Below, piece after piece: positions 2,295-36,962 of a stretch of 64,000 nt of DNA (its first letter is position 1; each line of letters starts with the position of its first letter). Location: positions 2,719,803 through 2,783,802 of the forward strand of contig NC_087380.1 in the NCBI RefSeq assembly GCF_963675165.1, given 5' to 3'. Made by a program: the position numbers and the translations under genes. The notes under the pieces are model-generated. The model was given only the letters and a program-made list of their open reading frames with translations, ran no database searches and was not told the DNA's origin. Source of the DNA: Halichondria panicea (Eukaryota; Porifera; Demospongiae; Suberitida; Halichondriidae).

Positions 2295-4635
2295 ATGAGT
2301 AGATCTAAGTCGTCAGGCCTATATACCTAATCATTTGCTTTATAGGTGAGTCTAATTATTATCAGTGCTGATCTAGATTTAACCATACTAAAATTATAAT
2401 AGATCTAGTAGTCTATATCTATATGATTTGACAGTGACAAACTAGGCTATATATTAGATCTATATGAAGTCTAGCGGCGCGGCTAGGGCCAAGGTTCATG
2501 AGGTTTCTTATAGATTTATACTCTGCATCTCTACAGTTGAGATGCTCACAATCCATGGGCAAAGTTGTCTTGTTGGAACTGATACTACTACAGAGTTGGA
2601 AGCTAGCAGAGAACGTGGTTTCTACCTCAACACTCAACATCCAGCTCAATGTAATGGGACAATAACTCAGTTTAATTTCTGCTACTATCGCTCAACCCTA
2701 TATGCCGCATCATATGACTTCACCTTCGCTGTGTTTAGAAGAAGCAGCCTGGAAACATATATAAATGTATCAGAAGCATTCACTACAGGCAGAACTGTTG
2801 CTAATCTTGATGGCACATTTGCCTGTAAAACATTCTCGGTAAATGATATCCCAGTGCAGGCTGACGATGTGATTGGTGTTTGCATTTACGACCCTCCAGA
2901 CAATGCTGAACCTGTCAGAATAAGCAGGACTGATTATACAAACAGATGGCAAATAGACATGGTTGGCCAAACTACAGGATCTGATCAGTTTCTACTAATA
3001 TCCACCGGTAACTCTGGCTGTGGGGACATGTCCATCCCAAACCCAGTAGCAGTTAGTTCTCTTAATAGAGTGGACGATCGAGTTCTACACATGTATGCCG
3101 ACATAAGTAAGTGACAGCCCATATGCATTCCACCAACATAATACATTAATTTAACCATTTGTGTTTTACAGCTCCTCTCCCAACCACTGAACCTCCAATC
3201 ATCCTCACGATTATGGGCACAACACCACCCTCCTCAACAGATCCTCCCATAGTTACTGACACACAAGAGACTGAAAGCTCAACAGGCACAATAGAAACTA
3301 CTCTCTCAAATGAAGTGCCACTAACAAACTCTCCCACAACTAGTACAGGAAATGATTCAATCACCACAATGCCTTCTAGTGTCTCTTTTGCCCCAGCGGA
3401 TAATACTGGAGTTGTAGCAGGTGTGGTGATGTTTCTATTGCTAGTAATTGTCGTGGCAGTGGTGACTTTAGTAGTTGCTGTTTTTCTGGTAAAGAGAGGA
3501 AGATCCCAAAAGGAGATAATAGAGGGTAATGTTGGTGGGAACACTGATACTGGAATCAACAATGAGATGGGTAAGGTATTGTTTATCACAATAAGCATGT
3601 GGGTATGGTGTCACACTGTTAGTGTTTATATTGTCAGTGTATTTATTAGATCATCTGTCAGATTGAAAGCATAATTATCACGTGTGGATTCATTGCTTGT
3701 ATATATGCATGCACAGAAAGAAGCCCTCACTCCATCAGTCTAAAGTCCAACGAGGCTTACAGTGTTCACGGCGAGACTCAAGACACTCCCACAGACTACT
3801 ACAATAATGTTCTTACGGAATCGACTGCAGAGGGGCCTCTCTATGATAGTGTCACAGAATCTGGAGAAGGTAAAGATGTGATAAGAGGATACGCCAATGA
3901 ATAATTAGGTGCGATGTGCACATAAATGTTCACTAGCAATAATAATTATTGCCTGACAATGCATGAAGCATTGATGTACCGTATAGCGTAATCTTCAAGG
4001 TGCTTAATTTTCGCTGTTTTTGAGGGTTAGCAAAATCCTCCACAAAAATGGTTCCACAACACATGCAGCTATAACGGCAGATACAACGTGCATTGACATC
4101 CGAGAAGTATATACACAATTTATTAAGCAGTTCAACGAAAATTAATTACCTTGAAATATTCGCACTATATGCACAATTGCTTTTATGGCATGCATTGTTA
4201 TTGCAGGACAATTATCAACAACTCCCACTCAACAGCCCAATGATTTAAACCCTTATGTGACTTATGAGGTAGTACCAGGACCTACACATTACAACGATTC
4301 CTGTCAACCGATACCTTTGGAAAATAATGAAGCTTACAGTGTACACAAATCTGGAAATGAAAGAAGTATAGAAATGCTGGGTGAAACATACTTTCAAGAA
4401 GTGGACCTAAAGTCCAACGAGGCGTATGGTGTGAGAGGGGAGGTGCAAGTTGCTGCCATTAATGGGGCCGCTGATGCAGTGTGCTATAGTGTCATTGACT
4501 CACCTGATCAGCAATCTGGAGAAGCAACCAGTGGAACTGAAATTCAAATGGACAGCAAGCAATGAGGCATATCGCACATCTGAGAGAGATAGACAAACTG
4601 AAGAAACACTTGATTATGATTACGCTATCCTGTAA
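2295..4635 (+). pseudogene. R2: kinase-less receptor of the cluster, disrupted at both ends
   Basis: Exons by homology are the signal exon 2295-2345, ectodomain 2537-3106, stalk and membrane 3172-3570, tail 3717-3869 and tail 4207-4635. The signal exon is 10 bp shorter than in R7 and R8 (51 against 61 bp), is out of frame and contains TAA. An open frame can start at 2464 by reading through the intron, but it gives no clear signal peptide. The ectodomain keeps all six family cysteines. The stalk is Thr/Ser/Pro rich, followed by a helix of Val, Leu and Ile and the stop-transfer VKRGRS. Near the end a 4-bp duplication (after GACAG at about 4554) stops the frame at 4565; the lost C-terminus NEAYRTSE to DYDYAIL is still readable in another frame up to 4635. 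It is probably a pseudogene, or an intracellular variant. Confidence 0.75.
3977..4186. mobile_element. MITE-like repeat in tail intron of R2
   Basis: This begins with ACCGTATAGCG and ends with a degenerate inverse (TTCGCACTATATGC), with several aaaattttcg-type blocks between. The same element sits at the same intron position in R5 (about 16000-16195), R6 (19560-19745) and R7 (31672-31862). A more typical copy is at 27836-28051 and related pieces at 49203-49333. It was therefore present before the kinase-less genes multiplied. Confidence 0.55.
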
Positions 4636-4785
4636 ACTGATCATGAATCACTAGCTGTATGCCTGATCGTTGTAATATTTTAGTGTAACTGGTCATTTTA
4701 AGAACCAGTGATTCTTGCTTTTAGCAGTAGGAGACGACCTCCATGCATGCAGAATTCATGCTAACTAAATAATTAGCATAGAGTA

Positions 4786-36600: not shown

Positions 36601-36962
36601 ATTATTGATTGTTTTCATAATTATAGGTTATAAGACTGATTGAACAAGGTCAAAGGTTGGCTCCACCCCCTGGAACTTCCAAAGCAGTGTACGAGCTGAT
36701 GGTTCAATGCTGGTAAGTACAAATCAAACACAAAAACTGCAGCAATATTATTTTATGAAAATTGTCACTATTTTGCAGGCATCCAGAGAATTCCCAACGT
36801 CCTGCTTTCAGAGATGTTGTACTCAGTCTAGCCAGAGGCGAGGAGATGATCCTGAACATTCCCGAGGAGGACTCCTCCACTAACCCACTGGCTGGAGTAT
36901 TGGGAGCTCCACTGGAGGCCGGAGAGAACATGTACTCTCAGCTGCAGAGCAGATATCAATAA
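33658..36962 (+). CDS. R8: complete receptor tyrosine kinase, 774 aa, same ectodomain as R7
   Basis: Exons are 33658-33718, 33808-34371, 34427-34816, 34988-35170, 35323-35408, 35460-35581, 35633-35846, 35897-35964, 36015-36171, 36256-36465, 36627-36712 and 36779-36962 (2325 bases, one frame). Signal peptide and ectodomain (21-208) differ from R7 by only a couple of residues. The stalk is nearly the same. The membrane helix (about 287-313) has diverged. The juxtamembrane region (314-468) is tyrosine rich ([50 protein letters not shown]). The kinase (about 470-745) has [35 protein letters not shown] and SDVWAYG, so it should be active. The C-terminus is [10 protein letters not shown]. The kinase part is nearly identical to R1. 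It is predicted to be a plasma-membrane receptor; the ligand is unknown. Confidence 0.93.

Follow-up and report, generated by a model that had tools for sequence, protein, structure and literature searches.

A mosaic receptor tyrosine kinase cluster with at least one intact kinase/kinase-less receptor pair in the sponge Halichondria panicea

The 64,000-nucleotide stretch of Halichondria panicea DNA analyzed here (the window, C4:2,719,803-2,783,802, on contig C4 of a genome of 131 Mb in 39 contigs) opens with a tandem series of receptor genes, in which one family of extracellular domains (ectodomains) is joined either to a tyrosine kinase or to a tail without one. Eight such loci, all on the plus strand, were found at window positions 1-36,962, as a first-pass annotation of the same DNA had proposed, the ectodomain of the first one lying outside the left edge. 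What had been taken for a cluster in itself is, however, the end of a far larger one: the first 37 kb of the window form the 3' end of a receptor tyrosine kinase (RTK) tandem cluster of about 248 kb (C4:2,508,740-2,756,761). The loci were numbered L1-L8 in order within the window, L7 and L8 being taken as the R7 and R8 of the annotation. Exons are labeled K1-K6 (kinase), J4-J6 (juxtamembrane), and T1 and T2 (tail), with TM for transmembrane, and the loci are as follows.

80..2161, plus strand: L1, RTK with a class A ectodomain; J6 at 80-202 followed by K1-K6, by tblastn; ectodomain left of the window at C4:2718252.
2295..4565, plus strand: L2, kinase-less, class A; disrupted signal exon at about 2295-2345, ectodomain at about 2536-3105, stalk/TM at about 3174-3569, T1 at about 3719-3871, T2 from about 4209.
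5304..8674, plus strand: L3, RTK, class B; ectodomain 5358-5960, stalk/TM, J4-J6, kinase exons 7227-8674.
8979..12136, plus strand: L4, RTK, class C; signal exon at about 8979, ectodomain 9168-9677, TM, J4-J6, kinase exons 10918-12112.
14551..17779, plus strand: L5, kinase-less pseudogene, class A; ectodomain 14551-15135, T1 15742-15894, broken T2 16222-16767, decayed kinase exons 17108-17779.
17974..20653, plus strand: L6, kinase-less, class A; signal exon with ACG at 17974, ectodomain 18140-18715, stalk/TM at about 18812-19150, T1 19299-19454, open T2 19778-20200, decayed K3 20511-20653.
30112..32323, plus strand: L7, intact kinase-less receptor of 526 amino acids; five exons at 30112-30172, 30262-30825, 30881-31270, 31422-31562 (T1) and 31899-32323 (T2 and stop).
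32644..33486, plus strand: decayed kinase exons behind L7; K3 (with a 32-nt tandem repeat inside), K4 and K6.
33658..36962, plus strand: L8, intact RTK of 767 amino acids; 12 exons, those for ectodomain, stalk and TM nearly identical to L7.

Kinase exons K1-K6 are present in L1, L3, L4 and L8, which bears out the four tyrosine kinase loci of the annotation, and in each they encode [12 protein letters not shown] and DFG; in L1 all six are stop-free (with [15 protein letters not shown]). L8 combines a signal peptide (judged by eye), an ectodomain, a single transmembrane segment (hydrophobic from residue 290) and a complete kinase, which matches the Pfam tyrosine kinase model PF07714 at E 8.4e-87 and has [21 protein letters not shown]. 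Among solved kinases, the highest whole-sequence score was that of a tandem EGFR construct (two copies, 150 bits each), followed by Eph receptors at about 222 bits. L7 gave no match in a Pfam search at E 0.001, and the kinase exons behind it are frameshifted relics. The splice models of both L7 and L8 have AG/GT at each intron border. Tail exons T1 and T2 occur in L2, L5, L6 and L7, and in L7 they add up to 47 + 141 = 188 residues, close to the enzyme-free tail of about 190 residues described for four loci. Only L7 is intact, however. L2 has a frameshift in the tail, with a stop at 4565 and the loss of about the last 25 residues, while the L5 pseudogene carries a TAG within the ectodomain, a third exon split over three frames, and a rearranged T2 with stops. 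In L6 the start codon has been replaced by ACG, with no in-frame ATG upstream. Nor is the signal exon the same in all eight loci, as had been stated: it is common to L1, L7 and L8, is found with the ATG to ACG change in L6, is disrupted in L2 and was not seen in L5, and the 5' ends of L3 (class B) and L4 (class C) differ from it. The class B start exon was not located, and the models of L3 and of the class B tail loci 2679579 and 2639275 (loci outside the window are named by their C4 positions) begin without it.

Copy-to-copy matches extend over hundreds of bases at about 60-100% identity, mostly far above 80%, and are therefore not due to chance. In this genome, two ectodomain queries gave at least 35 and at least 36 matches; those listed are confined to contig C4 and all lie inside the cluster except one at C4:1,653,208; the tail has at least 32 matches in the genome and, among the matches listed, all lie inside the cluster. 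Outside the genome, a scan of viral contigs gave 32 pattern matches and no relative. Three ectodomain classes were distinguished, namely A, B and C, of which A and B are each found on kinases as well as on tails, and C was seen only on kinases in the cluster. A tail locus was counted by script wherever an ectodomain match was followed by T2 with no K1 before the next ectodomain, which gave 17 cluster-wide; the small ectodomain fragments 2630133 and 2631453 were counted apart and the T1-only locus 2638047 was left out.

The ectodomains of L7 and L8 are 99% identical in amino acids, with a synonymous divergence (dS) of 0.026, and the DNA is 96.2% identical over 1,237 columns (30,052-31,284 versus 33,598-34,831), a similarity that stops 14-15 nt past exon 3, i.e. 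the TM exon. Two more neighbor pairs of a tail and a kinase locus, C4:2639275/2642216 (dS 0.035) and C4:2679579/2683072 (dS 0.103), lose their similarity within the transmembrane code. The end in or just after the TM exon in all three fits gene conversion and unequal crossing-over alike. L7 and L8 look like paired receptors in that they join near-identical ectodomains to different cytoplasmic parts and belong to a gene cluster that spans about 248 kb. The paired-receptor reading of the annotation thus survives as far as one ectodomain family on kinase and kinase-less parts and the near-identical neighbors L7/L8 and 2639275/2642216 go, but its four kinase-less receptors reduce to one intact gene. 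Two peculiarities were seen among the pairs outside the window. The stalks of 2639275 and 2642216 (C4:2639950-2640250 and 2642900-2643120) contain runs of TTMEA-like repeats, and gene 2679579 has T2 twice (C4:2681000-2681840), the first copy with an altered 3' half, which might lengthen the tyrosine tail.

Exactly six cysteines were counted in each of the seven ectodomains inside the window, in agreement with the six-cysteine domain first described. Class A and class B ectodomains were compared with Pfam, where no model reached the cut-off (the best E being 0.07). Searched at E 10, the PDB sequences held no match to a profile built from 26 ectodomains. An AlphaFold (AF2) model from the 26 ectodomains is all beta (mean pLDDT 78, pTM 0.79). 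Its best Foldseek match, at E 0.029 and to a carbohydrate-binding module and TNF-like jelly rolls, is too weak for naming the fold, and with nothing below that value the naming was dropped. Neither the Pfam cut-off, the PDB sequences nor the Foldseek comparison of the model pointed to an immunoglobulin (Ig) or C-type lectin domain; a distant Ig-like fold remains compatible. Within class B, evolution is faster in the ectodomain than in the kinase, with a median ratio of nonsynonymous to synonymous divergence (dN/dS) of 0.50 versus 0.20 (20/21 gene pairs, those with dS above 0.05). Between classes A, B and C, ectodomain dS ranges from 1.4 to saturation, while it is 0.3-0.4 for the attached kinases and 0.2-0.4 between tails on class A and class B ectodomains. 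The cytoplasmic parts must therefore have been swapped between, or homogenized across, ectodomain classes, and by these distances the ectodomain and cytoplasmic modules differ in age. For the lone relative at C4:1,653,208 (L022:4109-4732 and 5919-7416), 0.86 Mb from the cluster and 44-50% identical to L8, a search of 10 kb gave no match to the kinase exons or the tail. Its ectodomain is followed by open reading frames (ORFs) that are Ig-like by eye and by a tyrosine-rich ORF (TYEEIPASRE, NNAYSTV), and it could perhaps carry a third kind of cytoplasmic part.

Selection on the tail was assessed in T2 from three pairs sharing no member, chosen by us without a tree and from stop-free copies. These show 52.5 nonsynonymous versus 45.5 synonymous changes at a site ratio N/S of 3.6, i.e. 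purifying selection with a binomial P of 2.9e-8, which rises to 5e-5 when the null is made harsher to take account of transition bias. Judged by this codon pattern, the tail is a real coding module. The same selection speaks against the kinase-less exons never being expressed, an outcome that the annotation had named as one that would overturn its reading. Tyrosine columns of the tail are 98.6% conserved, compared with 88.6% for other columns (8 versus 122 columns, permutation P 0.019). The cytoplasmic part of L7 contains 12 tyrosines in 213 residues, including four NEAY repeats, which we take to be of the PTB type, and Yxx-hydrophobic motifs. Two motifs, VTYEEV and VCYSVI, follow the consensus of the immunoreceptor tyrosine-based inhibitory motif (ITIM; [SIVL]xYxx[IVL]), which is retained in 9/10 and 10/10 T2 copies, respectively; in ITIM receptors such motifs serve to recruit SHP-type phosphatases. 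The juxtamembrane part of L8 contains 13 tyrosines, along with two YxxP motifs and one that follows the ITIM consensus. An origin of the tail from the RTK juxtamembrane exons was rejected, as T1 and T2 had no similarity to J4-J6 when compared as profiles of three to seven sequences each; an LKSNEAYGV-type repeat is common to the two tail exons.

The condition of the copies allows a different explanation, according to which the kinase-less loci are by-products, i.e. decaying RTK offshoots with no function of their own that are at most briefly translated, L7 being the youngest and not yet broken. We hold this to be unlikely, though still to be taken seriously. Fourteen of the 17 tail loci are lesioned or fragments, if L6, which has lost only its start codon, is counted along with the 13 that have frameshifts, stops or missing parts. 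At the same time, all 18 plus-strand genes with K1 have six stop-free kinase exons (the stop check covering the kinase exons), with 79-100% of each exon query covered. Moreover, decayed kinase exons stand behind the tails of L5, L6 and L7 and of two further fragments, near 2631560 and 2648563. This makes five of the 15 tail regions tested, the other ten, some of them short, having none; behind the tail of L2 no kinase relic was found. The description of the tails as enzyme-free accordingly holds for intact kinases but overlooks the relics behind three of the four, and from these broken exons it follows that some tail genes stand at the sites of former kinase genes. What speaks against mere decay is the purifying selection on the tail between copies and the conservation of its tyrosines, as well as the fact that L6 and L7 have kept an open tail, with a frameshifted kinase relic immediately behind it. 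Furthermore, the tail does not derive from the juxtamembrane exons and is present on two ectodomain classes.

Exon similarity did not support the idea that the relics behind L5, L6 and L7 are what is left of these loci's own class A kinases. Their K3 relics resemble one another at 92-93% and come closest to the genes of class B, and the K4 and K6 relics match class C best, slightly ahead of L8 and others. A 32-nt tandem repeat has grown within the decayed catalytic-loop exon (HRDMAARN) behind both L7 and L6 (window 32721-32840 and 20594-20654).

What the locus presents is a two-output architecture, constraint on the tail and matched ectodomains in L7 and L8, together with kinase-less copies that are mostly broken and in several cases followed by kinase relics. 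Since most of the kinase-less copies are broken, the claim of a paired cluster was scaled down to that of a mosaic RTK cluster in which at least one kinase/kinase-less pair is intact, most of the other kinase-less copies being on their way out. The explanation that we favor, tentatively and at a little short of an even chance, is that the kinase-less receptors are modulators of RTKs with a common ligand, within a birth-and-death cluster of exchangeable modules. Gene conversion or unequal crossing-over, with its end point in the TM exon or just beyond, would have linked old ectodomain modules to either of two cytoplasmic modules. One is a complete tyrosine kinase whose juxtamembrane region is rich in tyrosines, and the other a tyrosine tail free of any kinase. 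Having the same ectodomain, an L7-type receptor would bind the same ligand as its kinase twin. L7 would then join mixed clusters with L8, where its tail tyrosines could be phosphorylated in trans by L8 and recruit SH2 or PTB proteins. It may in this way act as a brake on the kinase, both as a non-productive partner and through recruited SH2 proteins.

Several points weigh against such a modulatory role. Only L7 and 2679579 look free of lesions among the 17 tail loci, 2639275 being doubtful with its T1 splice donor not located, and the kinase partner of 2679579, 2683072, has a stop in J6. The constraint on T2 comes from comparisons of paralogues and may partly be past, since several of these (L6, a2619, f2636) now carry breaks in other parts; single T2 pairs range from dN/dS 0.18 to 0.75, the pair c2681/f2636 being weak at 0.56. 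The tyrosine test uses 8 columns and related sequences, and neighbors in a tandem array are expected to be alike anyway. ITIM-consensus motifs are found in the RTK juxtamembrane part as well as in the tail, so the sequence assigns no polarity, i.e. activating or restraining, to either. Finally, the interpretation is drawn from genomic sequence.

The tail might also have no inhibitory role and instead broaden what the kinase twin puts out, by offering phosphotyrosine docking sites. The 12 tyrosines of the L7 cytoplasmic part, with their NEAY repeats and Yxx-hydrophobic motifs, would suit such a scaffold, but the RTK juxtamembrane part already offers 13 tyrosines of its own, and the sequence decides neither for docking nor for restraint; we consider this version rather improbable. 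Whether the tail acts as a brake or as a plain docking scaffold is a guess, which leans modestly towards the brake for three reasons: a kinase-less partner cuts the number of catalytic sites per cluster, the tail has two motifs of ITIM consensus, and FGFRL1 offers a precedent (see below). Lastly, L7 and similar loci could supply alternative 5' ends, and an alternative tail, to the kinase downstream, as L7 and L8 are adjacent (3.5 kb apart), exon 3, the tail acceptor and the J4 acceptor are all phase 1, which would allow L7 exon 3 to be joined in frame to J4 of L8, and no AATAAA or ATTAAA occurs in the 700 nt after the L7 stop (weak evidence), but this seems very improbable given that signal, ectodomain and TM exons are already present and intact in L8 itself, that an L7-L8 product would hardly differ from L8, and that the constrained tail frame must sometimes be translated regardless.

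Other features were noted in and around the cluster. At C4:2547317-2553093, four ectodomain copies spaced about 1.7-1.9 kb apart precede a single kinase gene, possibly forming a multi-ectodomain RTK or short receptors. Another kinase gene lies on the minus strand at window 48206-49895, outside the receptor set, its K1-K6 matches being 47-81% to L8, and at C17:5,526,000-5,588,000 related kinase exons, about 33-78% to L8, make up a second tandem array, with no match to the cluster's ectodomain or tail. Repeats within the window include ORFs that by eye resemble a long interspersed nuclear element (LINE)-type reverse transcriptase, between L4 and L5 (12480-14348). Just downstream of the kinase relic behind L6 (20873-21839) lie long inverted repeats, with 98% identity over 129 nt and 100% over 67 nt, which may be small DNA transposons, and a minisatellite with a 90-nt unit in 7.4 copies, 98% alike and open in more than one frame, is found at 25983-26647.

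The cluster is a variant on two arrangements that are already known, i.e. kinase-less RTK paralogues and paired receptors. FGFRL1, which serves as a precedent for the former, is a single gene of the FGFR family and has Ig domains. This kinase-less FGFR paralogue binds FGF and, according to the available part of the source, has a tyrosine-motif tail reported to bind SHP-1 (PMC12026108). In the same partial account it raises ERK phosphorylation in some settings (PMC12026108), and as a precedent for a brake it therefore cuts both ways. A kinase-less paralogue with an ectodomain of an RTK family and a tyrosine-motif tail is what it has in common with L7, as far as that account goes (PMC12026108), and an RTK as the catalytic partner is thus less new than the annotation had supposed. 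The present case differs in that kinase-less copies occur repeatedly along a tandem cluster and on two classes of ectodomain, with homogenized neighbors and an ectodomain without a Pfam family.

The KIR, SIRP and PIR families are likewise paired receptors, clustered and with near-identical ectodomains on different cytoplasmic parts. In vertebrate paired receptors the activating member signals via an adaptor with an immunoreceptor tyrosine-based activation motif (ITAM) through a charged transmembrane residue, and to our knowledge both members borrow kinases from outside. Unlike these, the hydrophobic TM segments of L7 and L8 contain no charged residue, and L8 has its own kinase. In the neighboring genes Siglec-11 and -16, conversion maintains the likeness of the 5' exons, and a non-functional allele of the partner is common (PMC5701461), and CEACAM pairs coevolve (PMC2832619, PMC5112662), in each case by the portion of the source that was available. 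Clustered genes with near-identical ectodomains and different cytoplasmic parts are, by the same partial evidence, a likeness to these systems (PMC5701461), and the stop of the L7/L8 similarity just after the transmembrane exon is of the Siglec type. Among invertebrates, the fester (FF) and fester co-receptor (FcoR) genes of Botryllus form tandem pairs in large families, with tails carrying ITIM, hemITAM or Yxx[ILV] motifs, as the accessible text has it (PMC12065747). They resemble the sponge loci as tandem pairs with tyrosine-motif tails, but have Ig and Sushi domains and partners unlike in domain make-up, and that text mentions no kinase (PMC12065747). Lineage-specific tyrosine kinase families are on record for early animals and choanoflagellates and are comparable in their lineage specificity, with no mention of a kinase-less sister tail in the part of the source at hand (PMC8662651). 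No description of a cluster of RTK/kinase-less pairs was found among the open-access papers listed in the literature searches, which is weak evidence of absence.

In its strongest form, which we think unlikely but not far-fetched, the locus would be a true paired-receptor system in an early animal, with an RTK as one partner and a kinase-less receptor with an ITIM-like tail as the other. Recurrent exchange of the extracellular and TM exons would keep the recognition domain, which has no Pfam or PDB relatives, matched between the partners, so that recognition diversifies while the driving and restraining outputs stay paired. The mostly broken kinase-less copies limit what can be claimed, and L7/L8 is the pair worth studying. 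If the interpretation is true, an enzyme built into one partner and a matched tail on the other would represent an independent route to paired-receptor logic, and the origin of inhibitory tyrosine-motif receptors would become testable in one locus. The unnamed, fast-evolving ectodomain family carried by these RTKs is, moreover, a candidate for self/non-self or microbe recognition.

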